Below are positions 2,819-16,787 of a stretch of DNA of 64,000 nucleotides, piece by piece. How positions within the stretch are numbered: position 1 is the stretch's first letter; each line of letters starts with the position of its first letter. The stretch is from NCBI GenBank assembly GCA_019636845.1, contig JAHBWV010000001.1, positions 1,178,001 to 1,242,000 of the forward strand. Reading direction: 5' to 3'. The notes beneath the pieces are model-generated. The model was not told where the DNA came from and did no database searches. It saw nothing but the letters and a program-made list of their open reading frames with translations. Source of the DNA: Phycisphaeraceae bacterium (lineage in GTDB: Bacteria > Planctomycetota > Phycisphaerae > Phycisphaerales > UBA1924). A program made the translations under genes and the position numbers.

Positions 2819-3520
2819 TCACTGTTGCCGCTTCGCTGTCGCTAGATACTGCTCAAGTGTTCCACCAAATGACGCAACCCATGATGTTGCCAGAAACGCT
2901 CGCTCAAACTCAGCATCGACGAGCCTCGCGCCCTCGCGACACAGCAATGTGTAACCGGGATGAGGCAGCAGAGTATTGTCCACATGCCTGACTCCGGCAA
3001 CGGGTCGCTCGTCAGCCACAAGTACGTGCCCCAACGTGGGCAGCGATGATGGATCACCCCAAGGCACAAAGGCAACTGGACACAGGTGATAGCCACGCTC
3101 ACGCTCTCTGAGTGCTGGCAGATCCGAAGCGGGCACGTCGATCAAGCGTCCCGTAAGGACTGACTCGCTCTTGCCCGTCCAAGCTGCGTTCAATGCAGCT
3201 CGTTCGCGAGGTGAGATCTGGTCGCCGTATCTGTCTAGCACAGACTGCGGCATCACGTAATTGAATACACGCGTGGCCCCGAAGGCGATCACTGGGGGAT
3301 GCCCCACGGGAGGAGTGCTGCAAATGGTCCGCTTCGCCGACGCAGGGTTCAGCAAGCTGCCATAGCCGACTAACAGTAGTGGTCGACCGGTATCCATGAT
3401 GGACGGCTCGAGAGAGGCCCATGGATATGGGAGAGGCATGTTGTCGCTTTGGGCGAGGAGCCAGCCACACGCCTCTCTTGCAGTTTCAATCTTCTGGACG
3501 AAGTCCATGGCTTTGCTCAC
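2819..3520 (-). CDS. Gamma-glutamylcyclotransferase-like (GGCT/AIG2-fold) protein
   Basis: 233 residues from a GTG at 3520 that overlaps the stop of the TIR-NB-ARC gene by four bases (GTGA), so it is translationally coupled to it. Residues 51-59 read VGYGSLLNP, the substrate-binding YGS loop that defines the GGCT/AIG2 fold. A downstream RERGYHL segment (Glu141) is where these enzymes carry the acid catalyst. Family members release 5-oxoproline from gamma-glutamyl amino acids, glutathione or gamma-glutamyl-protected products. The substrate here is unknown. The ~45-residue N-terminal extension is not part of the usual fold. It is the last gene of a three-gene block with a phytochelatin-synthase-like gene, which also suggests a gamma-glutamyl substrate. 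Confidence 0.8.
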   Translation of the reverse strand: MSKAMDFVQKIETAREACGWLLAQSDNMPLPYPWASLEPSIMDTGRPLLLVGYGSLLNPASAKRTICSTPPVGHPPVIAFGATRVFNYVMPQSVLDRYGDQISPRERAALNAAWTGKSESVLTGRLIDVPASDLPALRERERGYHLCPVAFVPWGDPSSLPTLGHVLVADERPVAGVRHVDNTLLPHPGYTLLCREGARLVDAEFERAFLATSWVASFGGTLEQYLATAKRQQ

Positions 3521-6423
3521 TTGGATTCTACGCCGAGCGACGATCGCAACCGCAGATAATCCACGTATCTGCTTCGTGTTCGTTCAATCGGCCAGTCGCG
3601 ATCGCCGAGTCCACGGATCCGCACGAACTCACTCGCGTCCTCAATAAAGATGCGGGCCTCCTTCTGCCTGCCATCCTCGGATGCGATGCGAGCTAGTAGC
3701 ACGCAGATCGCAAAATCCCGCTCAAGTGCGCGAATGTTGCTCCGGCGGGACCACGCGCGAGCCGCCTGAAGCGTCGTCTCAGCGGCGCGCACATCCCCGC
3801 ACCAGTACTGCGCCTCGCCTTTGACCTGCAGGAACAGGGCAATCGTCTGTCCATACTCGGTGCCCATCACCAACTGTTGGTGCTCATCAGCCAGTGCGAT
3901 TGCCTTCGAAGCATTGGTCGCTCTTTGCGCGGTCCGACCAATCCCGCCCTGATACAGCGTGGCCATGATGAGCGCAGTGCGGTTGACAGCCCCGAAGGCC
4001 TCGTTACCCTTGGTCAAGGGGTAGCTTTCCCCAAGCACTCGGAACGCTTCATCGCACTGACCCAAATCGATGTACACCAAGCCAATGTTAGTAAGTGCCC
4101 CACCCTTCGCAGTGAGCAAGCTGCCCTCCGAGCCCGCCGCCAACTGCTGGTCGATCCATGTCAACCCTTCCTGATGGACGCTTAGTGCCTCATCAAGTCG
4201 CGCGTCGCGCCACAGCAGTATGCCTAAGCACGCTCTCGCCCGCCACGACAGGAATGGGTCGATATCTCTGTTACGGGCGATTTCGAGAGCCCTTCTTGCA
4301 AACCTCGCTCCGGACTCGAATCCATCAACCAGCTCTGAGGAATATGCAGCCTCAATCAGCGACACGCACAACGCGCCAGGATCCGGGCCACCTTCAAGTC
4401 GCTCCAGTAGTTCAATGAGCTCCCGATGAACCCGGTCCAGCGTTTCGCCTTCGCCGGCATGTTCCGCCGACATGCGGAGGCGAGCGAGGACCATGAGCCT
4501 CAACTGCAGATCCTCTGACGGCACAAGCAACTCGGCTGCCTTGATGTACGCGCCAGCACTCTTGTATCTCCCCAGCAATTCTGCCGCTGTCGCTGCCTCG
4601 ACGTAGGCTCTCACAGCGTCGGTTGGGTTCTTGCTAGCGACTGCGACTTCCTCCGCAAGCTCCTGCAACTCGCTAGCAGGCCCGTACCTCATATAGACGG
4701 GAACGAGAGCTTTTAGTACGCCTAGTGCTTGTCCAGAATCCGATGCGGAGCACGCGCGTCGCAGCGCGACCCGATAGTTGTGAACATCGGCATGCGCTTC
4801 CTGCAGAAGCTCCAAGCGAGCTACTCCCTTGCTGGTGGTCTGGAGGCTTGTGTGCAGCGCTCTCGCCTTGGATACAAATGCTCTTTGATGTCCATTGTCG
4901 AACGCGCGACGGACATCAACTCCGTCAACGCGCTCTGCCATGATCGCGTCGCCGACTTCTTGACACGGCAGATACATGGACCAACGCGAGGACCGCTCGG
5001 CACGAAGCAGCCCGCTCTCATGCAGACCCACCATGAGCTCGTACGGATTGCCCACTCCATCAAGCACGCTCTCCGCTGCGGTATCGTCGAAGCTTCCACG
5101 AAACTGTGAAAGCAGCAGGAAGGCCCTCTTGGTGGACTCGGGCAGAGTCGCAAGTGTCGACCGAACGGCCACCTCCATGGTCTCCGCGGATGAGGCACCA
5201 ACGCGTAGACTTTGGCGATACTTGCGAGCCTCGCTTACATACCGCTGAAGTCTTCCGAACCTTCCAAAGTTCTTGGCCGCTTGGTCGACGGGCGCTGGAA
5301 AGCCACCGAGTAATGCACAGAGTCTGGCAATCTCTCGAATCGTGTCGGGCTCTCGTTGAAGGGCAGCCCGCACGTCCGACAAAGGCTCAGCGGCCCGCAC
5401 ATCTTGGACTCTATCTAGGAAAAGCTGGACCACGGAGTACGCTTGCTCCAGCGCCGCTGGTGTCAGACTTTGAATCTCTTTCTCCGAGGGCACTGGCAAT
5501 GGCTCGAGAGATCGCCCCACCACGCCGGAGACGGCAGCACATCGAAACACTCGAGAGGTGATAAGCACCTTGAGCTCAGCAACCCGCTTGCACCATTCGA
5601 TGAACTGCGCCTCGGACTCCGATGATACTTGCTCGAAGTTATCGACATACAGTAGAAATCGATTCGCAGCGGACACTCGCTGCCGCAGGAGGCGCAGCAT
5701 CTCGTCCGTGCTCGCACCCGCGTCCACATCGATCGCAAGGTCGTTCATGATCCGGGTGACAACTTGAGCGAAGGAGGTGTCATCACGAGACAGTGAGACC
5801 GCGCCGATCGTCCAGCCCTCGCCGAACAGCAGCTTCTGGACCAACGCTGCCACCGTTGACTTTCCCGCGCCCGGGGGACCATAGATGATGTACACGCGAC
5901 GGTTGAGGGAGACAATATGAGCTGCGATCTCTCGGGCGGCATGATCTCTGCCGTACACATCGTTGTCGATGGCCGAGCCCCAGCCCAACTCGTCGCGAAC
6001 AGCCTTCGCAAGTCGCTCGATGGTGGGCGTGTCAACCAGCCCGTTGCCGAGAATGAGTCCGGACTTCTTGGGGATCAAGAGCTGGAGTTTGATGTCTGAG
6101 TCGGAAGCTAGCGCGGTATCGAGAAACACAGGAATGATGTTCCGGTTGTTCTCGATCGCAGTCTGTATCTCAAACAAAATCTCCCGATATCCACCGCCTT
6201 CCGCTGCCGCATCGCGACTAACCAGTAATATGAAGGCAGAGCTCTTAATGATCTCTGCCTCGCGCACCAAGTAATCCTCTCCCGGACGTCCATCTCGTTT
6301 ATATGCATAGCATTTCAAGCCATATCGTGCCAGGCGATCGGAAAGTTCCTGGGCGAGCGGTGCCTGCTCCCCTGCATGCGAAATGAAGGCATGAAACGCC
6401 GAGGCGGAGGGGTCGGGCGTCAT
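3517..6423 (-). CDS. TIR-NB-ARC-TPR (NLR-like STAND) protein
   Basis: 968 residues. Residues ~9-115 form a TIR domain (FHAFISHAGEQ, IIKSSAFILLVSRD, then YREILFEIQ, where Glu81 or Glu85 could be the catalytic glutamate of a NADase TIR). An NB-ARC-type STAND NTPase follows: Walker A GPPGAGKST at 182-190, Walker B FLLYVDNFE near 257-264, LITSR near 287-291, and a GLPL-like LLGGFPAPVD motif. The C-terminal ~450 residues are helical TPR-type repeats (LLTAKGGALTNIGLVYIDLG), the usual sensor part. This is the layout of bacterial NLR-like immune proteins in which ligand binding to the repeats drives oligomerisation and TIR activation. The start ATG overlaps the stop of the upstream phytochelatin-synthase-like gene (ATGA). 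Confidence 0.88.
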   Translation of the reverse strand: MTPDPSASAFHAFISHAGEQAPLAQELSDRLARYGLKCYAYKRDGRPGEDYLVREAEIIKSSAFILLVSRDAAAEGGGYREILFEIQTAIENNRNIIPVFLDTALASDSDIKLQLLIPKKSGLILGNGLVDTPTIERLAKAVRDELGWGSAIDNDVYGRDHAAREIAAHIVSLNRRVYIIYGPPGAGKSTVAALVQKLLFGEGWTIGAVSLSRDDTSFAQVVTRIMNDLAIDVDAGASTDEMLRLLRQRVSAANRFLLYVDNFEQVSSESEAQFIEWCKRVAELKVLITSRVFRCAAVSGVVGRSLEPLPVPSEKEIQSLTPAALEQAYSVVQLFLDRVQDVRAAEPLSDVRAALQREPDTIREIARLCALLGGFPAPVDQAAKNFGRFGRLQRYVSEARKYRQSLRVGASSAETMEVAVRSTLATLPESTKRAFLLLSQFRGSFDDTAAESVLDGVGNPYELMVGLHESGLLRAERSSRWSMYLPCQEVGDAIMAERVDGVDVRRAFDNGHQRAFVSKARALHTSLQTTSKGVARLELLQEAHADVHNYRVALRRACSASDSGQALGVLKALVPVYMRYGPASELQELAEEVAVASKNPTDAVRAYVEAATAAELLGRYKSAGAYIKAAELLVPSEDLQLRLMVLARLRMSAEHAGEGETLDRVHRELIELLERLEGGPDPGALCVSLIEAAYSSELVDGFESGARFARRALEIARNRDIDPFLSWRARACLGILLWRDARLDEALSVHQEGLTWIDQQLAAGSEGSLLTAKGGALTNIGLVYIDLGQCDEAFRVLGESYPLTKGNEAFGAVNRTALIMATLYQGGIGRTAQRATNASKAIALADEHQQLVMGTEYGQTIALFLQVKGEAQYWCGDVRAAETTLQAARAWSRRSNIRALERDFAICVLLARIASEDGRQKEARIFIEDASEFVRIRGLGDRDWPIERTRSRYVDYLRLRSSLGVESK

Positions 6424-7217
6424 CGTGGCTCCAAAGGTTCACTTGTGGCCGCATCGTGCAGGCCTGGCGCGGCGGCCGAATCGGTCGGTCTGGGCGACGT
6501 CACAATGACGAATCCACGACTTCGACCTGACTCAGAATCGATCGCCTGCATACCTTTCCAAAGCGACGGAGTGTCGATCCACACTGGAGGGAGCCGATAC
6601 CGCGCTACGTCCAGAAGGAGGAATGCGTCCGCAGCCGCCGAGTAGGCTCCCAGGGGCGAGATGTGTCCGCCGCCTGGTTGCGCAACCGCCGGTCGGTGGT
6701 AGTTTACAAGCACTACACCTTGGTCTGCCCGTAGAGTACCGCGGACCCGCTGCCGAAACGTGTTCAGGTCCGTCATGTCAGCATGAACGATCTCCGCCCG
6801 AGCACCTTTAGCTTCAAGTAAGCGGCCAAGTTCGTCTAGTGTCATGCCGCTTGCTCGTACTTTTGACTCCGAAACGACGCCGACCGCGACGCCATCGAAG
6901 AAGCTCTCTTGCGTGAATGCGCGATACGGCTTCCATTGCGGAACCTCCGGAGCTGTGACGCCGACAGCATGCAGCGCAATGACGCTCGACGCGACCCCGC
7001 AGTAGGTCTGCGTTGCCTGTGTCTCGAACTTCTCAATCACCCGAGAAAATCCCTTGAGGCTTTCGGCATCTTCGAGCAACGCGACACCCTCGGGGCTGGT
7101 CATCGCGAGTGGACCCCTGAATGAGCCCGTCTTGGACGTGTCTACACAGCCGACGAGCAAGAGAACGCTCGAAAAAGTGGCGAGCGTTAACGCCAACTTG
7201 GACAACATCGCACTCAT
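6420..7217 (-). CDS. Phytochelatin-synthase-like (papain-fold) lipoprotein
   Basis: 265 residues. The N-terminus is a lipoprotein signal with lipobox LLVGC (Cys24), so the protein is expected to be membrane-anchored outside the cytoplasm. The catalytic triad of the phytochelatin synthase family is present: Cys73 in QTYCGVASSV, His185 in GGHISPLGAYS, and Asp203 in LLLDVARYRLPP. The last two segments match the eukaryotic enzyme motif closely. Short bacterial relatives of this family cleave glycine from glutathione rather than build phytochelatins. An AAGGAGA ribosome site lies six bases upstream of the ATG. It heads a block of three overlapping genes with the TIR-NB-ARC and GGCT-like proteins. 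A lipoprotein export signal paired with cytoplasmic partners is odd. Confidence 0.85.
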   Translation of the reverse strand: MSAMLSKLALTLATFSSVLLLVGCVDTSKTGSFRGPLAMTSPEGVALLEDAESLKGFSRVIEKFETQATQTYCGVASSVIALHAVGVTAPEVPQWKPYRAFTQESFFDGVAVGVVSESKVRASGMTLDELGRLLEAKGARAEIVHADMTDLNTFRQRVRGTLRADQGVVLVNYHRPAVAQPGGGHISPLGAYSAAADAFLLLDVARYRLPPVWIDTPSLWKGMQAIDSESGRSRGFVIVTSPRPTDSAAAPGLHDAATSEPLEPR

Positions 7218-7472: not shown

Positions 7473-8006
7473 TCAATCCCAGTCGCCGGTCGTTGGGTCG
7501 ATCCTGATGATCCGGGTTCCTCGCTCCCTGGACAACTCGACTACGTTCGCCGTGCCGCCGGGGCCTCGAGCAGGCGAGCCGTCCCATACCGCGATCAGCA
7601 CGTCAGCCATGCTTGCTATCTCTCGTGCCACAGCAGCGTGATCTACATAGTTGTTGTTGCGGGACAAGACGGTCGGCGCGACTTCGCTCGCCACGCAGAT
7701 CCGTGTGAAGTCGCACTTGTGCTCGTTTGGGGTGAGAGCAAGCATCTCATCTAGTGAGCATGGGAGCACAATGCGTACTGGGATTCCAGATTGGAGGCAG
7801 GCCTGTGCCACCATCAGGTCCGCTCCGATGGCCGCGGAGCCAAACCCGAACCAGCCCGACGCGCTGCGAGTCGTGCCATCGGGTGCGCGTGAAGTGAGCT
7901 CCGAGATCACCTCGCGGATCGCGTCCGTCACGGCCCGTTCGTTCTCCACGACTCGGTGTCCTGTCCAGCCGAGGCACCGTCGAGGCCCGGTCATCGCCTC
8001 GCTCAT
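7473..8006 (-). CDS. Stand-alone SLOG-fold nucleotide-sensing protein
   Basis: 177 residues from an ATG at 8006 whose first bases overlap the stop of the RyR-channel gene (ATGA). The sequence has the SLOG (LOG/DprA-like Rossmannoid) hallmarks: CLGWTGHRVVE at the N-terminus, GSAAIGADLMVAQACLQSGI with VRIVLP, and ADVLIAVWDG followed by GPGGTANVVELS near the C-terminus. SLOG domains bind or process nucleotides; in Thoeris ThsA a SLOG domain senses a cyclic ADP-ribose isomer. Here no effector is fused, and the translational coupling points to the RyR/TrkA membrane protein as partner. That partnership is inference. Confidence 0.8.
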   Translation of the reverse strand: MSEAMTGPRRCLGWTGHRVVENERAVTDAIREVISELTSRAPDGTTRSASGWFGFGSAAIGADLMVAQACLQSGIPVRIVLPCSLDEMLALTPNEHKCDFTRICVASEVAPTVLSRNNNYVDHAAVAREIASMADVLIAVWDGSPARGPGGTANVVELSRERGTRIIRIDPTTGDWD

Positions 8007-10096
8007 GAGGCCTCCATCTTGGCCGTGGCGGGGGGAGAGCCCTTCGAGGCGGCCGCGGGCCCAAGACTGAAGGTGGTGCTGTTGCCAAGCCACCGGAATA
8101 GATCATCGATCTGGGCGTAGTCCTTGTCGGCTTCGTCCTGGCTCAGGTGGCTCCAATCGACGATGGCCGAGCGCAACTTGTATTCATCGCTTCGCTTTCC
8201 GAACTGCCACCCGCTCACGAGTCGATCGGCCAGCCAGCGGTTGTGCTCCATCACCGCAAGGAGCTTGCGGGACTCTGGCGGCAACGTGAAGCCATCGAGC
8301 GTCTCGCTCGTGGGTCCACGCCTCACGACACAAAGGCCCACCGCCGCGAGCTTCACGGGAAGGTGCCCGGCGGCGGCCAGATTCGATCGACGCTCCCACA
8401 GCGGCAGATTGACAAAGTGCGTGTTTGCCTCCGGGGTCGAGTTGGAGCGGGTGCTTTCGGCAGCATGCACAGGCTGCGACTTGCTGGTCCGAGCGAGGTA
8501 CTGCATCGCCAGTTGCTCCGCGAGCGGGCGTTGTGCGCTGCTCGCCAGCGAGGTCAGCGCGCACATTCCGCCCGGCACGCCAAAGACCACCACTCCGGAT
8601 TGACGAACAAGCTCCGCCAACCTGGGACGCGACGGCACATAAGCAGCGACGGTCACACGACGCTGCGAGTCACCGGTCTGAGGTGCGGTGGTACACCGGG
8701 CGACCAGCTCAGCTTGGAGGTCGATCGCAGTTGTGCAGATCTCCTCATCATCGTCGCCGCAAACAACCACCACTGGCACCACCCCCGGTGCGTTGGCCAG
8801 CGCGACGATGCTCGAACGCACGTCCGGGCTCGACAATCCCCCTGTGTGCTCGGCAAATCCGCCGTTGACTGCGAAGGTCACACCCTGCGCCCGCTCGGAG
8901 GGATGGTCCGACTTCGAATTCCGAACACCGAATCCCCAGTCATCCTTCGCGGACTCCGGGTTCCACGGGTCGCGGATCTCGTTCGGAAAGAACCGAGGAT
9001 ACTGCCCATTGAACGATTCCACAGCCGCACGGTCATTTGGAGACACCAGAATCGTCATCCGGGTTCGCTTGCAGTTCTCGAAGTGAGCGCGATCAGCGAT
9101 CCGGACGGCTAGCCGTTGCGCGACTGGGCTCACTCCGACAATGACCACATGCAGCACTTGGTCCGTTGTTCGCGGGCGAAGAGGCATCAAGACCCTCGCC
9201 ACAACGTCATCCGCGGCCTGTTCTAGTATGTTAAAGCACTGGACATCGAGTGGCTGGCTATGGGCAGACGCCGGCCGAGCGACTGGCTCGAGCAACAGTG
9301 CGAGTTCGGGGCGTCGCAGGTGGATGCTGACCTGCGGTCGAGCCGCCTCGCTTGTAGGGAGAGCGTGAACGAGCTGGCGTAGGTCACAGGCCCCCTCGAT
9401 GTTGGCTTCATCCGAACCGGTGACAAAGTACACCTGGGCGGCACGTTCTGCGCGCACTCTTTCCAGGAGCTTCTCGTCCGTGGCGTCACCATGAATCACG
9501 ACAGCACCGAGTTCACGGCAGCGTTCGATGTGCTCGTTCGATGGGTTGGCATCGATCACGACGACATACGGCCGGGGAGGGTTACCCGCGGTCGAGCCGT
9601 TCGGTTCACGGAGGTGTCGCACGAGACCGAGCCCGGTTGCTCCAAGCCCACAGATGACGATGTGTCCGCGCTTGCGCCGCAGCAATGCCTGTTGGATTGA
9701 GTCGGCAAAGAGGCGAGTCAACGCCTCGAAGGCGACGAGCACAACTGTCGCCACGGCGCAGAGTCTGGAAGCCAGTATCCAGAAGTTCTGGTGCGGCTCG
9801 GCCGGCGCATTCAGAAAGAGGTGCTGGGATGCCAGATATACAGCGTCAACGAGCCTGATGGTCCAATTGCCCGCGTGAGTCGTGGCTCCCCCGCTTGAGT
9901 TAGGTTGCAGGAACCAGCCGACGGTACCAAATGCCAAGGTTGCCGCCGCTGTTCCCAACAAGATCGTGGCCTTCGCGCGTTTGCCACTCGGAACACGCCG
10001 CGGAACGCGATCGCCGAGGAAAGCCCACGTCACCATCGCGATCAATACTCCGCCGAGCGGGAGCAGTGCGATTTGGCTCAATTCATCAGTAGTCAT
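8003..10096 (-). CDS. Channel-like membrane protein with TrkA-N/RCK and C-terminal RyR domain
   Basis: 697 residues from ATG 10096; a GTG at 10129 is an alternative start. Hydrophobic segments lie near residues 9-28, 44-63 and 104-131. A pore-helix-like stretch (RLVDAVYLASQHLFLNA) precedes the last one, but no TVGYG-type selectivity filter is visible. Next is a TrkA-N/RCK Rossmann domain (HIVICGLGATGLGLVR, then VVVIDANPS and VIHGDAT). A second, weaker RCK-like unit starts with LHVVIVGVSPVAQRLAV. The end of the protein is a RyR domain (LAVMEHNRWLADRLVSGWQF, then DYAQIDDLFRWL). RyR-TrkA proteins have been noted by comparative genomics in nucleotide-centred conflict neighbourhoods. A ligand-gated ion leak is a reasonable role. 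The gene precedes and overlaps the SLOG gene. Confidence 0.8.
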   Translation of the reverse strand: MTTDELSQIALLPLGGVLIAMVTWAFLGDRVPRRVPSGKRAKATILLGTAAATLAFGTVGWFLQPNSSGGATTHAGNWTIRLVDAVYLASQHLFLNAPAEPHQNFWILASRLCAVATVVLVAFEALTRLFADSIQQALLRRKRGHIVICGLGATGLGLVRHLREPNGSTAGNPPRPYVVVIDANPSNEHIERCRELGAVVIHGDATDEKLLERVRAERAAQVYFVTGSDEANIEGACDLRQLVHALPTSEAARPQVSIHLRRPELALLLEPVARPASAHSQPLDVQCFNILEQAADDVVARVLMPLRPRTTDQVLHVVIVGVSPVAQRLAVRIADRAHFENCKRTRMTILVSPNDRAAVESFNGQYPRFFPNEIRDPWNPESAKDDWGFGVRNSKSDHPSERAQGVTFAVNGGFAEHTGGLSSPDVRSSIVALANAPGVVPVVVVCGDDDEEICTTAIDLQAELVARCTTAPQTGDSQRRVTVAAYVPSRPRLAELVRQSGVVVFGVPGGMCALTSLASSAQRPLAEQLAMQYLARTSKSQPVHAAESTRSNSTPEANTHFVNLPLWERRSNLAAAGHLPVKLAAVGLCVVRRGPTSETLDGFTLPPESRKLLAVMEHNRWLADRLVSGWQFGKRSDEYKLRSAIVDWSHLSQDEADKDYAQIDDLFRWLGNSTTFSLGPAAASKGSPPATAKMEAS

Positions 10097-10294
10097 TGGG
10101 CGGTGTATCTCAGAGGCGGGAACAGTCACACAACGGACACATCGTACGGCTGGCTCAGTCTGAGAGTGGGAGAGCTAGTCTGGAGGGTCTCACCAGCAAC
10201 CGGTCCCCCGCAGTAGTGACGATGGATTCCTGTGGGCCCTATAGGTTCCGGAGATTCTTCGTGACCCGTCGAGGTTCCGTTCTGGCCGGGCAAG

Positions 10295-13200
10295 CTATGG
10301 ACATGGACGCGCTTCCATGGCGATGCCAAGCTTGCCGCGTACAGCGGCGACCTCAATCGTGCGGTCACCTCGCCGGACGAGAAGCTGGAAGGTATCGCGC
10401 ACCGCCAGATCGATTAGCTCACTCAGTTGAGAACTAGCACACAGCCGGTGATCGTCAAATCTGACAAGCACGTCACCTGGCAGCAGCCCCAACGATTGTG
10501 CTTGGCTTCCAGCCACAACTCGCTGAATCACCACTTCAGAGCACGCCGGCCGTCCGAATGTGTCGAGTGCACTCCAGGTTGGAAGCGCAGCCCCATTCGC
10601 CATCGTCCGCGTGAGTCGCGCCCAGCCGGATGGTCCCGTCGCTGGACGATCTACAGTATCGCTGTACGCTCTCTCACGCAGCGCAAGGCCATCAAAGCTC
10701 TGAACGAATCGATGGAAGCCTCGCGTCCCGTTTGTCGGACAATCGGCAAGGTCAAAGCGTCGTTCAGAGACGAGTCGGTCCCGCCAGTCGTACTCACTGA
10801 CAAGACGGGCGACCCCGTCCTCATTGAGAACGGGGCGGCCCTCGGCGTCTAGAAAACGGATGTCAACCGAATTGCCGCGGCCATCGAGTTGGTGAACCGC
10901 TCGAACGACGGTTGGCGGCTTGTCCGACCCTTGCGGCGATGCGAACAGGAACGTCCTCTCCAGTGCACGCGATCCGGCGTCAAATGTGGTCTCCACGGCA
11001 TACGCACCGCCATCCGCAAGCGGTGTCGGGTTATCCTCGGCGTCGAAGTACTCCTCTTTGACCGGGTTGCCACGCTGGTCGCGCGTATATCTCAGTTTCG
11101 CGTACCCAAGCGAGTTCACGACCGGGTTTCCGGCGAGGTCGATCGATAGCAGTTCCAGTGGCTGCTGGCTTTCACCATATCGGGCTCTTAGTCCCGCCGA
11201 TCCTTGGTAGCCGAGCATGGGCTCACCGGCTGTGTCCAAGTAACGTTCTTCGATCACGCGCCCCTTGTCATCTAGGCTGCGACGCACGAGGAACGCATCG
11301 AGTGAGCCGCGCGTTGGCGCTCCACTCGTATCTTCATATCGTTCGAGGCTCGTGCGATCCTGATCGTTGTATGACGTAACCACCGCCGCGCATGACTGAG
11401 TTCTGTGGCGCACCGGCTTTCCGTCCGCATTGAAGTACGACGATCGGAGTCGTCGACCCTTTGAGTCGAGTGTGACAACATATCGCGCAGCCCCGTCCTT
11501 ATCCGGAACGAGTCGGCCATCGATCCCCAGACAGCTGGTCTCGACCGTGCTGGCCTGATCATCACGAGCGGTCACGAGGGCCGCGATTCCGGACAAGTCT
11601 GCTGCGGGCAGGGAGACGGTGTTAAGGTATCTGGTTTCAGTGAGCCGCCCGCGGCTGTCGTAGGTGTACTTGGCGCTGACATAACCGTCTGGTCCGGCGG
11701 CCGGACGATCGTCCGCATCAGTGTACTTCAGCTCGAGAATACGGTTGCCTGAGTCGAAGCGGCGGGTAACCAGGACGATGTCGCCCTTCGATCGTTCGCC
11801 CCAGAGTTCCCGAGCGACAGTTGTCTCCTTCGCAGCTCCTTTGTCATCGAACAGCACCGTGGTCCGAATCGGCGACGACCCCTCCTTCTTGCGCGGAGCC
11901 GCGAGGGGAAGCGTGTAGAACATCTGCTCTTCGACGGCGGCCTTGGAGTTGCCGTACCTCGTAGTAAGCCGATAAGGCACATCCGCACTCACCAACGGCT
12001 CGCCGTTGACACCGAAGACTAACAATTCAATCTGTCGCCCATTCTGGTCGTAAGTCATTCTTGAACTGGCGAACCCGTACAAAGACGCGATCGGCTTGAG
12101 GTCGGGGCCGAAGCACGCCACGAACACCGGATTCCCGTTGACGTCGTTCTCGATTCGATCAACGGCGTGCCCAAGCGGACCGATGGTCAGGCGTCCCTCG
12201 CGATCAAGGTATTCCGTGCCGATCTGACGTCCTGCTCCATCGAGGAGTTGCTTCTCGAGGACGGCAGGAGCCTCGGCGGTTGGCAGAGCGATCACGTAGT
12301 TGTTCTCACCGCCGATGGTGTTGCCAGATCCGTCGAAACGGGTAATCACTCGGCGGCTGACACGGTCGACGAACTGTGCGGCGTCCAGTTCGGGATCCAT
12401 GAACAAAAGCGTCGTTTGGCGAACAACAGCAGAATCGGTATACTCCATGACTTCAGTGTGCGGGTAAATCTTGCTTGCGAGCAGGGCACCTTTGGCATCA
12501 AAACGACTGCGTCTTTCGATATCACCGCGGGCGTTGTAGCGAACTGTAAAGCGAGCGACCCCGTCGGCAGGGTCCACGATCAATCGATCATCAGGATCCC
12601 ATCGGGCCTCTTCCAAAGGTTGTCCTCGTTGGTTGTACACAAGTGTCCGGCGAGCATACCCAGCGGTTCCGATTACCAGTTGGCCCGTGGTGCCCAAGTA
12701 TTTGACTTCTAGCACGCGGCCCTCACCGTCTGTGCGCTGGGTCCTTCGAGCCCAACCTCCAGGGCCGGTGACCAAAGCGCCGTCAGCACCAAAGCACGAT
12801 GCTTCAATCACAACGCCGCTCTCGTCGTATAGGCGTGTCACACGCGCGACCCCTTCGGCACCGGTGACCGGCTCACCGCGCTCGCTCCAGAACGCCTCCT
12901 CAACGATGTTCCCCTGATCGTCATAAGCCAACGTACGTCGTGCGTATCCGAGGAGAGGCCGGTCAACGCGGATGAGATTGCCGTCGGCTCCGAAGTAGGT
13001 CGATTCCGCGAGACGTCCGGCCCGATCGTACCGCAGGGTCATCCGTGCGAAGCCAGCGGCGACAATGTCCGGCGCCCCGTCTGGGGCAAAGAGGGCCATT
13101 TCGATCACACGCCCATGATCGTCATACTGAGTGACCTGCCTCGCAACACCCTCCGGTCCTCTTATCGCTTTCCCATCCGCACCGAAAAACGCAGCATCGG

Positions 13201-16200
13201 TGACGTTGCCGAGGCGGTCGTACGCCATACGCGAACTTGCAAATCCGACCGTCGAGACGATCGGCCTCCCATCCACGCCCTCAAAGTGCTGTTCTATCAC
13301 GTTCCCGCGATCGTCATACGCGTGACGGACTAGGTGGACATTCTCCGCGTCGAGTACGGGCCTCCCGGTGACATCGAAGTATGCCTCTTCGACTGGCCTG
13401 GACATCGCATCGAATTGCGTGCTTGCGCGGTGGATGTGAGCGTTTGAGAGCGTAGGTTTGCCATTGACGCCGAAAAACGCTTGTTCAATGCGATTGCCGC
13501 GATCGTCGTACGCCACTCGCCTGATCGCGACGTCGTCGTTGTTCTTGGTCTGCCTTCCATCGTTGCCGTAGTACCGCTCTTCAACGACGAGATTGCGATC
13601 ATCGTAGAGGCGGACACGCCGGGCGACGCGGTCCCCACCCCCGGCGACCGCCTCGCCAGCAACGCCAAATGTGGCGGACTCGGTGATGTTGCCGCGGTCG
13701 TCATATGTAATGTCAATCCTTGCAAAAGCGTGTGTCTTGTGAAGCACGGGCTTGCCGTCCACCCCGAACAGGCGCATGGATGTGTTCCTGTTGCGCTGGT
13801 CGTAGTCTGTACGCAAGGTCGCCGCTCCGTCGATATCCGCACGTGGCCGATAGTCCACGCCGTAATGCCTCGTAACGATCTGATTCCCGCGTGCATCGTA
13901 CTCGCGGACAACTCTCGCACGTCCGTTCTTGTCAAGCGATGGAAAGCCGTCAATACCGAGGTGATCTGTGCGAAGAGTGCGGCCTAGATCGTCGTACTCG
14001 CGATGTACCCGGGCGACGCGGTCGCCATAGTCACTGTTGGTCGTTGGCGCGCCGCGCACGTCAAAGAAAGCAATATCCTCGAGATTGCCGCGATTATCGA
14101 ATGACTGGGTGTACTTCGCGTAGCCGTTCTTGCGAGCGACGGGACTACCATCAACGCCCATATACGCTCGCGCGATGAGTTGACCGCGCTCGTTGTACTG
14201 ACTTTCCACGCTCGCAAAGCCGTCGCGATGGAGGGCGGGTTCTTGATCAACACCGACATGGCTGGCGCGAATCTCGTTGCCCCGCTCGTCGTAAGCGTAG
14301 TCCGTGCCCGAAATCCCATGCTCGTCAACCGTCAAAAGCCCATCGATACCGAATACTCGACGAGACAACACCCGGTGACTCCCGTCAAATGTCTGAGCAA
14401 TCAAATGGCCTCCACTCGTACTGAGGCACGGTTTACCATGCACGTCCAGGTTCCGGCTCGTCAGCATGTTTCCGCGGACGTCGTAGGTGAATTCAATCGT
14501 GGCGTAGCCGTACTGCGTGTTCACCGGCATGCCATCGGTTCCGTACGAACTGATTGTGATCGGATTACCACGACCGTCGCACACGCTTTCAATGCGGGCA
14601 TAACCGCCGCTGCGAAGCGTCGGCGCGCCGTCGGGCCCGAACACCGACCAGTTCGTGATAAAACCGCGATCGTCGAACTTCGCGTGAAAGCGCGAATAGC
14701 CATCGCGATGTCTGACCGGCGAGCCATCGGTGCCCGCATACTCACCTCCGTTCCAGTTTCCCCGACCGTCATACGAGAACACTGCAGAGGCATAGCCGTC
14801 ATTGTGATATACTAAACGGCCCTCACCGTCGATACATCGCCGAACTACTTCGTTGCCAGAAGCGTCGTACTCGTAAGTCAGCCTTGCCGGACCGTCCGGA
14901 CCGGGGACGGGCTTTCCTTCGCCGTCGAAATAAGCCCGTGCCACGACGGAACCCAGTGCATCGCGATCCTCGTCGACTCTCCCAACGCCCTTTCGATCTG
15001 GCAGTGGTGTCCCCGACGCGTCGAGGTGGATGGTGCGGACGATCAGGCCGCGGGCGTTGTACTCGAACTGTTTCCCGAACACCCCCGATGCGTCGGCCAC
15101 GGCGCTGCCGTAGGAATTGCGGAAGAGCAGCGAGTGGGTCAGCCCGTCGACGGCGAAATACACTTGATACGCTGTAATGTCGGAACGCCGCATGTCCTCG
15201 CGGTCCGTCGGTGCCGTGAGAAGTGCCTGCGCGAACTCACCCTGTGACTGGAAGTTGATGGCGCATCCCCGAAGTCCCTTCTCGTCGGGTGCGCCATGCC
15301 TCGAGAACGCTCGCTGCTGAACCAGCCGGCCATTGCGGTCCTTCAGTACCAGCCTTTCAAGCGAGCCGTCCTCGCGGTATCCGATTTCGGTGATCGAGGC
15401 GTTGGCGTTCAAGGAGTCATCGACGGGGCGACCCGCGCTGTTGACCCGTTCGACCCGCCGTGTCTTGTAACCCCGATACTCGAACCGGAAGCTAATCTCG
15501 CGTGCCGAGCGCTGCGCCTCGCTGAGTTGCGATACACCCTCTGGAACACCCCATCGATCGGTCGTGAACGCGTAATACCGAACCTTGAGCCGGCGATAAT
15601 CCCACGTACCCAGCCCAGCAAGAAAGAGCACCAACACCAATACGCCAACAACCCACTGCTTGATGCGATCCCGTTTGGCCTGCCGCTTTGCAAAGGCATC
15701 GAACCCGAAGCCGGTCACGCCTGCGACTGCCTTTAGGCAAGCCGTCTTCCAACCATCCCCATTCGGGCGAGCATCGCCCGCGATCGGCTCGACCCGTTGA
15801 TCTGAGAGCAAGCCGTCAGGGCCGATTCGATAGCGAAGCGCCGGAGGGAAGCATTCACTTGCAGACCGAATAGGTTCATCGGAGGCGTTTGGCTCTCCAT
15901 CCGCGATGATCGCAAAGATCCGGTCTTCGCGGCCTAGTGATTTGAAGAAGCGGATTTCCTCGTTGACCCAGCGCGACCCGGCTGCACTAGGAGTGCAGAG
16001 CACGATGAGGTACTTTGACGCGCGGAGTGCATCTTCAATCGCCGAACCCAGGTCGGCAGAAAGCGGTAACTCCTCGCGGTCACGGAAAATCGGAAACAGC
16101 CTGCGGGGTACCGGACCGTCACGGCCTGGACGACCGGCAATCGATCGGGGAATCCTATAGGATTCCAAGAATGCGTGGAGTCGCTTAGCATCTCTTGCGT

Positions 16201-16252
16201 TCTTGCTCGAGTATGAGATGAATGCCCAGTATCGTGCATCCGTCAGCGGCAT
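10295..16252 (-). CDS. Giant TIR-transmembrane-YD-like repeat-PDZ protein
   Basis: 1985 residues, with AAGGAG placed six bases before ATG 16252. Residues ~7-150 are a TIR domain (YWAFISYSSKNARDAKRL, FRDREELP, YLIVLCTPSAAGSRWVNEEI; Glu98/Glu99 sit at the NADase position). A single membrane helix follows at ~200-217 (WVVGVLVLVLFLAGLGTW). Residues ~260-1890 are a solenoid of a ~32-residue unit with consensus YDDRGN-x6-8-FGVDGKP-x5-G-x-A, which I estimate at about 45 copies, some interrupted. It resembles RHS/YD or YwqK-type repeats. The last ~85 residues are a PDZ domain (GLLPGDVLVRFDDHRL). With the TIR domain cytoplasmic, the repeats and PDZ would lie outside, so this could be a transmembrane sensor. 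Confidence 0.8.
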   Translation of the reverse strand: MPLTDARYWAFISYSSKNARDAKRLHAFLESYRIPRSIAGRPGRDGPVPRRLFPIFRDREELPLSADLGSAIEDALRASKYLIVLCTPSAAGSRWVNEEIRFFKSLGREDRIFAIIADGEPNASDEPIRSASECFPPALRYRIGPDGLLSDQRVEPIAGDARPNGDGWKTACLKAVAGVTGFGFDAFAKRQAKRDRIKQWVVGVLVLVLFLAGLGTWDYRRLKVRYYAFTTDRWGVPEGVSQLSEAQRSAREISFRFEYRGYKTRRVERVNSAGRPVDDSLNANASITEIGYREDGSLERLVLKDRNGRLVQQRAFSRHGAPDEKGLRGCAINFQSQGEFAQALLTAPTDREDMRRSDITAYQVYFAVDGLTHSLLFRNSYGSAVADASGVFGKQFEYNARGLIVRTIHLDASGTPLPDRKGVGRVDEDRDALGSVVARAYFDGEGKPVPGPDGPARLTYEYDASGNEVVRRCIDGEGRLVYHNDGYASAVFSYDGRGNWNGGEYAGTDGSPVRHRDGYSRFHAKFDDRGFITNWSVFGPDGAPTLRSGGYARIESVCDGRGNPITISSYGTDGMPVNTQYGYATIEFTYDVRGNMLTSRNLDVHGKPCLSTSGGHLIAQTFDGSHRVLSRRVFGIDGLLTVDEHGISGTDYAYDERGNEIRASHVGVDQEPALHRDGFASVESQYNERGQLIARAYMGVDGSPVARKNGYAKYTQSFDNRGNLEDIAFFDVRGAPTTNSDYGDRVARVHREYDDLGRTLRTDHLGIDGFPSLDKNGRARVVREYDARGNQIVTRHYGVDYRPRADIDGAATLRTDYDQRNRNTSMRLFGVDGKPVLHKTHAFARIDITYDDRGNITESATFGVAGEAVAGGGDRVARRVRLYDDRNLVVEERYYGNDGRQTKNNDDVAIRRVAYDDRGNRIEQAFFGVNGKPTLSNAHIHRASTQFDAMSRPVEEAYFDVTGRPVLDAENVHLVRHAYDDRGNVIEQHFEGVDGRPIVSTVGFASSRMAYDRLGNVTDAAFFGADGKAIRGPEGVARQVTQYDDHGRVIEMALFAPDGAPDIVAAGFARMTLRYDRAGRLAESTYFGADGNLIRVDRPLLGYARRTLAYDDQGNIVEEAFWSERGEPVTGAEGVARVTRLYDESGVVIEASCFGADGALVTGPGGWARRTQRTDGEGRVLEVKYLGTTGQLVIGTAGYARRTLVYNQRGQPLEEARWDPDDRLIVDPADGVARFTVRYNARGDIERRSRFDAKGALLASKIYPHTEVMEYTDSAVVRQTTLLFMDPELDAAQFVDRVSRRVITRFDGSGNTIGGENNYVIALPTAEAPAVLEKQLLDGAGRQIGTEYLDREGRLTIGPLGHAVDRIENDVNGNPVFVACFGPDLKPIASLYGFASSRMTYDQNGRQIELLVFGVNGEPLVSADVPYRLTTRYGNSKAAVEEQMFYTLPLAAPRKKEGSSPIRTTVLFDDKGAAKETTVARELWGERSKGDIVLVTRRFDSGNRILELKYTDADDRPAAGPDGYVSAKYTYDSRGRLTETRYLNTVSLPAADLSGIAALVTARDDQASTVETSCLGIDGRLVPDKDGAARYVVTLDSKGRRLRSSYFNADGKPVRHRTQSCAAVVTSYNDQDRTSLERYEDTSGAPTRGSLDAFLVRRSLDDKGRVIEERYLDTAGEPMLGYQGSAGLRARYGESQQPLELLSIDLAGNPVVNSLGYAKLRYTRDQRGNPVKEEYFDAEDNPTPLADGGAYAVETTFDAGSRALERTFLFASPQGSDKPPTVVRAVHQLDGRGNSVDIRFLDAEGRPVLNEDGVARLVSEYDWRDRLVSERRFDLADCPTNGTRGFHRFVQSFDGLALRERAYSDTVDRPATGPSGWARLTRTMANGAALPTWSALDTFGRPACSEVVIQRVVAGSQAQSLGLLPGDVLVRFDDHRLCASSQLSELIDLAVRDTFQLLVRRGDRTIEVAAVRGKLGIAMEARPCP

Positions 16253-16343: not shown

Positions 16344-16739
16344 CTACTGATTGCCTAAGGGCGCAATCGCGGCGTGTACAGCTTTCCAGTCCAAGCCGAT
16401 CATGCTGGTATCATGAGCGACACCGTGCGGCAGGGAGGAACCATACTTGAACGCTTGCAGGTAGACGATTGGCTTGTGGCGCTGAATCGCCATTTGAACC
16501 TCGGCAATCACGCCCTTAGCAGAGTGCGTGTTCTTGCCGCAGATAACAAGCACCGCCTTGGCTGAGTCGATCGCCTTGGCCGCGTCCGCTTGCCACCGAT
16601 GATCGGTAACTGCACCCGGCAATGAAACGTCCTTGATCCAGATAGGGCATTGTTCGCCCGCCCACTCCGCAACGAGTCGGTTCTTTGTGGCCAGATCGTG
16701 CTCGTAGTCGAAGCTCAAGAACACTGGTGTGCGATTCAT
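16344..16739 (-). CDS. Small TIR-like protein of the ThsB (MTH538) type
   Basis: 131 residues from ATG 16739, chosen because GGAGG lies eight bases upstream; a GTG at 16754 is in frame but overlaps that site. The product opens with PVFLSFDYEHDLATKNRL, the beta-A motif of ThsB/MTH538-type TIR-like domains, and continues with AKAVLVICGKNTHSAKGVIAEV, where the final Glu matches the catalytic helix. Thoeris ThsB proteins make a cyclic ADP-ribose isomer that activates a SLOG-containing effector. It is the first gene of the minus-strand island cluster, 91 bases ahead of the giant TIR gene. Confidence 0.75.
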   Translation of the reverse strand: MNRTPVFLSFDYEHDLATKNRLVAEWAGEQCPIWIKDVSLPGAVTDHRWQADAAKAIDSAKAVLVICGKNTHSAKGVIAEVQMAIQRHKPIVYLQAFKYGSSLPHGVAHDTSMIGLDWKAVHAAIAPLGNQ

Positions 16740-16787
16740 CGAATACACCTCCACGGATCCGATTGGTTCGGTCGGCGCAACTGTAGG

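Follow-up and report, generated by a model that had tools for sequence, protein, structure and literature searches.

A STAND-TPR gene followed by a gene for a GGCT-fold enzyme was found at three planctomycete loci, where the two genes form a recurring, patchily distributed unit. At its N-terminus the STAND protein carries different domains at these loci (TIR or other), and the GGCT-fold partner is constant. We read the pair as a two-gene NLR-like immune-type module made up of a diversifying STAND-TPR sensor, a swappable effector and a conserved GGCT-fold enzyme, which a phytochelatin synthase (PCS) gene would have joined at only one of the loci, and we give this reading an even chance of being right.

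Three overlapping genes on the minus strand

The window, that is the whole 64,000-nt stretch of DNA analysed, comes from Phycisphaeraceae bacterium (GCA_019636845.1, contig JAHBWV010000001.1, positions 1,178,001-1,242,000 of the forward strand), whose genome is referred to below as G000. An ORF check placed three minus-strand genes at 7217-6420, 6423-3517 and 3520-2819, as described in an earlier reading made from the sequence only, and both of the 4-nt junctions claimed there were seen. An ATGA stop/start overlap (6420..6423, minus strand) leads from the PCS gene to the TIR-STAND-TPR gene and a GTGA overlap (3517..3520, minus strand) leads from the latter to the GGCT gene. Joint translation of the three genes is a fair inference from these overlaps. 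Scans for sigma-70 promoters and terminators gave matches at chance level only.

The first gene (6420..7217, minus strand) encodes a 265-aa lipoprotein of the PCS family, with PF05023 covering residues 38-236 in a Pfam profile search (E 1.9e-57). The nearest solved structure is that of Nostoc Alr0975, or NsPCS (phmmer E 4e-56, 44% identity over ~205 columns of the catalytic domain). When the two are aligned, the Cys-His-Asp triad previously claimed is found at C73, H185 and D203 in the segments YCGVAS, GGHISP and LLDVARY. By sequence the product is a genuine PCS family protein, for which catalysis (GSH hydrolysis/transpeptidation) is predicted by homology. The C-terminal regulatory domain is missing in both proteins, whereas the lipoprotein signal and lipobox, the planctomycete host and the TIR-STAND neighbour set gene 1 apart from its Nostoc relative. 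The hydrophobic N-terminal stretch ends in the lipobox LVGC at residues 21-24, which supports the earlier label of lipoprotein and makes export of the protein probable.

The second gene (3517..6423, minus strand) encodes a 968-aa TIR-STAND-TPR protein with Pfam matches to TIR_2 (E 2.2e-11), AAA_22 (E 5.2e-9) and nSTAND1 (32.0 bits against a cut-off of 27.1, E 1.4e-7). The TIR domain spans residues 9-103 (6115..6399, minus strand; TIR_2 match at 13-103) and contains the putative NADase glutamate E85 within FEIQTAI...NIIPV, the equivalent of E77 in the relative from a Phycisphaerae MAG (L009), where the NIIPV strand lies at the same spacing. A structure model of the TIR domain alone was of low confidence (pLDDT 53) and was set aside as too poor to serve as evidence. 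The P-loop of the STAND NTPase, GPPGAGKS, occupies residues 182-189 (5857..5880, minus strand), and a TPR superstructure, the putative sensor, extends over about residues 560-940 (3604..4746, minus strand). Several TPR matches were found in this region, each of them weak (TPR_8 and TPR_12), and the region is shared with the two relatives described below, one of which (G003) has a strong TPR_12 match (E 1.3e-18). Gene 2 therefore combines the TIR domain with a putative catalytic Glu, the P-loop NTPase and the C-terminal repeat superstructure by which TIR-STAND proteins are recognized. The layout had been named TIR-NB-ARC-TPR, of which the TIR domain, the P-loop NTPase and the TPRs stand, whereas NB-ARC is too specific; because PF00931 scored 16.1 bits, below its cut-off of 23.5, STAND NTPase is the safer label.

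The third gene (2819..3520, minus strand) encodes a protein of 233 aa with no match among the Pfam and NCBIfam profiles, including GGACT (PF06094) and ChaC (PF04752). Its AlphaFold (AF2) model, built from 12 homologues, has a pLDDT of 91.2, and the top PDB matches of this model are human GGCT, ChaC2 and B. subtilis YkqA, with plant AIG2-like proteins also present (best Foldseek match E 2.6e-6, probability 1.00). Human GGCT (3cry) aligns with Z 12.6 and an rmsd of 2.7 over 146 residues, well above unrelated rows; together with ChaC2 (6ky1) and YkqA (2qik) the range is Z 11.5-12.6 and rmsd 2.7-3.5, and the AIG2-like proteins 2jqv and 2g0q reach Z of about 8. Cas-like rows in the same comparison had Z under 4 and were treated as background. 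Gene 3 shares with these proteins the fold, the YGS loop and the candidate catalytic Glu, but it is only 12-17% identical to them, has a helical extension at its N-terminus that contains a YPW motif, lacks a Pfam match and is paired with a STAND gene. The YGSLLNP loop reported earlier is present at residues 53-59 (YGSL at 53-56). Six residues (G52, G54, S55, L56, R140 and E141) are invariant across the 12 homologues, and E141 is, by alignment, the candidate equivalent of the GGCT catalytic Glu. Since only intermediate homologues (in genomes G110, G135 and G481), which share the invariant residues including E141, pass the PF06094 cut-off, the protein was filed on the strength of its model as a divergent GGCT-fold enzyme, neither GGACT nor ChaC, with putative release of 5-oxoproline. 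No export signal was found in it. The earlier assignment as GGCT-like is upheld by a confident model and not by a family profile of its own.

Recurrence of the STAND-TPR and GGCT gene pair

With the GGCT protein as the only query, a single strong match (52% identity) was found among 150 relatives, in a genome of the same genus (G003), where a 1271-aa STAND-TPR gene ends 29 nt upstream of the GGCT gene on the same strand. The C-terminal part of this STAND protein is homologous to gene 2, and its first ~450 aa, before the NTPase, are not TIR. Scanning GTDB contigs with the two GGCT proteins led to a Phycisphaerae MAG (JAUIEC010000017.1; locus L009, apparently G242:C18) with a GGCT of 53% identity, directly upstream of which lies a 943-aa TIR-STAND-TPR gene on the same strand; the junction is an ATGA overlap in the place of the GTGA of the window. 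The STAND adjacency was in both cases seen after retrieval by GGCT alone, and these first finds are less affected by the circularity of the profile models used afterwards. With those models, strong GGCT matches among 397 genomes of the class and full-length STAND-TPR relatives among 298 genomes of the class were confined to the same three genomes (G000, G003 and G242), with scores that are not independent because each model includes its own three matches. Seven other STAND matches among the 298 genomes cover the NTPase part only.

Beyond these genomes, a restricted search of the order of G242 gave no new GGCT, and none was found in plasmids, phages or viral contigs. STAND matches in viral contigs were P-loop-sized and those in plasmids (Rhodococcus, Nonomuraea and Deinococcus) were partial, with no full relative in either. 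The same GTDB contig scan also returned a GGCT homologue without a STAND neighbour in an Opitutaceae MAG, where a 769-aa membrane protein without a Pfam match directly follows it (L010 9932-12928).

Identity to the window is 46-53% for GGCT and 26-29% for STAND, as would be expected of an enzyme beside a diversifying sensor. In the GGCT tree, the window protein groups with that of G242, which belongs to another family, over that of the same-genus G003 (fork support 93/92), and the STAND protein of the window likewise scores 201 bits with G242 vs 78 bits with G003. As both genes are closer to G242 than to the same-genus relative, the sequences suggest that STAND and GGCT were transferred as a pair. 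Points counted against the two-gene module include that only three loci are available and that the G003 genes are separated by 29 nt with no overlap.

More distant GGCT relatives outside the pair adjoin amide-hydrolase, gamma-glutamyltransferase or serine-dehydratase-like genes, so the GGCT gene is possibly metabolic and a companion of the STAND gene by chance. Those of one family (f92) have an AAT-type amide acyltransferase and a BPL_N protein as neighbours, with a gamma-glutamyltransferase nearby in one case. The gene order is conserved in three genomes (L024 5179-8105, L025 5898-8816 and L026 5542-8549), in which the GGCT comes after genes for an AAT-type (penicillin acyltransferase-like) hydrolase with a signal peptide and for a BPL_N/GATase-like protein, and the run is possibly an exported amide-scavenging operon. 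These apparently metabolic contexts also bear on the proposal that GGCT is a second effector which, once activated, destroys gamma-glutamyl metabolites or links in cell components and so adds to the loss of NAD+. Its active-site residues are conserved in all 12 aligned homologues and a 4-nt overlap joins it to the STAND gene at two of the three loci, but an enzyme whose relatives are found in such contexts is probably not toxic alone, and it lacks a regulatory domain. We consider a second effector unlikely.

The phytochelatin synthase gene and the role of the pair

The PCS gene was found to be far more restricted than its two neighbours. PF05023 passes its cut-off in one of 298 genomes of the class and one of 294 of the phylum, which is in both cases the genome of the window, and the one further match in those genomes is a fragment below the cut-off with stops. 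No PCS gene occurs at the G003 or the Phycisphaerae MAG locus, and none was found in viral contigs and phages. Four plasmid regions with PCS genes contain no TIR or STAND neighbour; the genes there adjoin oxidoreductases, cation ATPases, a gamma-glutamyltransferase with DsbB, or a replication gene, and three of the four proteins have, by eye, signal-like N-termini without a lipobox. The PCS was therefore ruled out as a conserved component, being absent from both relative loci and nearly all sampled genomes, and its coupling to the pair is, as far as these sequences go, a single-locus feature. The ATGA overlap between the PCS and TIR genes nevertheless argues for some coupling at the window locus.

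The sequence-only reading had joined all three genes functionally and proposed a gamma-glutamyl compound or thiol pool as the trigger, signal or target of the TIR protein. In one such defence system, PCS would convert GSH to gamma-Glu-Cys and GGCT would cut the product further. The 4-nt overlaps at both junctions and the intact PCS triad and GGCT E141 fit this arrangement, as does the activity of the homologue NsPCS/Alr0975, which splits GSH into gamma-Glu-Cys and glycine (PMC12065762), the former being a plausible GGCT substrate. However, a check of neighbouring genes returned STAND with GGCT in two further genomes, the PCS in neither of these and a TIR domain in one, so that the coupling holds for GGCT and STAND and not for PCS. 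The glutathione idea is further weakened since the PCS looks exported and GGCT carries no export signal, and since gamma-glutamylcysteine ligases of the GCS2 and PF04262 families were not detected in the host genome (assembly ~95% complete), where a single weak match to GSH-S_ATP (PF02955) was found; judged from its gene content, the host is unlikely to make GSH itself. The G003 locus, which keeps GGCT without TIR, speaks against a tie of gamma-glutamyl chemistry to the TIR signal. Taken together, a single three-gene system appears improbable. An equally improbable form of the idea has the threshold of the NLR-like sensor set by gamma-glutamyl chemistry, in which GGCT would consume or make a gating compound in the cell and the lipid-anchored PCS would here act on peptides outside the cytoplasm, so that TIR-driven shutdown of the cell would be coupled to the state of thiol peptides.

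For the two-gene module that we prefer, presumably one for antiviral defence or other conflicts, we propose that the TPRs would detect an invader molecule, after which the STAND NTPase would oligomerise and the N-terminal effector would act; here the TIR domain would cleave NAD+ through E85 and halt the infected cell. Since GGCT persists where another domain stands in place of TIR, its most likely partner is the sensor or switch part of the STAND protein and not the TIR domain. The enzyme probably forms or consumes a small gamma-glutamyl compound, or strips a gamma-glutamyl group from a protein, and this compound or group would keep the switch off or license it. The exported PCS most likely joined the gene run later, and its thiol-peptide role outside the cytoplasm would be accessory or unrelated.

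TIR-STAND and other NLR-like conflict proteins (AP-ATPase, NACHT and Avs-type; PMC7159879) resemble gene 2 in having an N-terminal TIR effector, a STAND NTPase and C-terminal repeats, and also in their exchangeable effector and defence-island location, but in the window and at its relative loci a GGCT-fold gene is the constant companion of the STAND gene. PMC7159879 and PMC8195603 contain none of the terms gamma-glutamyl, cyclotransferase and phytochelatin, and a comparison of the block with PADLOC-DB (2023 library) gave only weak partial matches (E 0.001 or worse). Nothing relevant on GGCT or PCS with STAND or TIR defence was found in the open-access literature, and the earlier reading likewise knew of no described system with this pairing. 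The three-gene thiol-immunity model is partly supported, and we replace it by the pair with a locus-specific PCS, as a variant of NLR-like conflict systems. If the pair is functional, NLR-like bacterial immune sensors would have a GGCT-fold small-molecule enzyme as a constant partner, an association of which we found no description. Plant AIG2-like proteins are named for their induction in NLR-mediated recognition of AvrRpt2. As the GGCT fold includes these proteins, a possible connection of NLR immunity with gamma-glutamyl chemistry would, again if the pair is functional, become testable in a simple two-gene system. The locus also illustrates how a neighbour present at a single site, here the PCS, can be taken for a component of a system.

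Defence-type island and a possibly mobile cassette

The block of the window is situated in a defence-type island. Just to the left of the window, Cas3, Cas7 and an array of the repeat GTCGCCCCTCACGCAGGGGCGCGGATTGAAAC belong to a CRISPR-Cas locus (L048 2464-13703, G000:C1), after which a serine recombinase is encoded (L048 13802-15823). The G003 pair adjoins a CRISPR array with a Cas12b (C2c1)-like effector and a Cas2-like gene (L006 14614-15972, G003:C1:144613-149094).

Both the G000 and G003 pairs are also near a multicopy terminase-HTH-ParB/DNA-methylase cassette of 4.6 kb, the copies of which (G000:C1:672892-677457 and G003:C1:131116-135681; L061, L006/L049) are 96% identical. These two copies lie at unrelated places in the two species, that of G003 being beside its pair, and relatives of the ParB-methylase give 11-19 matches per genome in the genus of the window. 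The cassette is possibly a mobile element without obvious capsid genes.

With CRISPR loci and this cassette adjoining two of only three loci, GGCT and STAND might be functionally unlinked, as chance neighbours carried as cargo in defence islands that mobile cassettes shuffle. Against this, gene order, orientation and tight spacing are the same in three genomes of two families, with the 4-nt overlap in two of them, and the flanks otherwise differ among the loci. The 96% homology moreover stops before the GGCT gene, by which the cassette was ruled out as the carrier of the pair. We regard unlinked cargo as a modest possibility and retain the two-gene module.

Further genes upstream of the block were observed on the minus strand. 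A gene that is possibly SLOG-like (PF02481 E 0.2; ~7473-8009) overlaps that of a TrkA-RyR membrane protein (8003-10129), which has a TrkA-N match (E 4e-16) and a C-terminal RyR match below the cut-off (E 1e-4). As phage RyR-domain proteins are reported to bind cADPR immune signals or to cut them (PMC13232231), the TrkA-RyR protein may, by analogy, be an ion-channel-like effector that answers a TIR-made signal. Further upstream of the block is a gene for a 1985-aa protein (10295-16252) with a TIR domain, one TM segment at residues 196-219, a very long stretch of YD/RHS-like repeats and, at the C-terminus, a PDZ domain. Thoeris (TIR ThsB with an effector) resembles the locus in its TIR domains, and a small ThsB-like TIR protein lies nearby, but gene 2 fuses effector and sensor in one STAND protein and no ThsA was found among the genes examined. 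The ThsB-like gene (16344-16754, minus strand; PF08937 28.7 bits against a cut-off of 21.2) is located directly upstream of the 1985-aa TIR gene.
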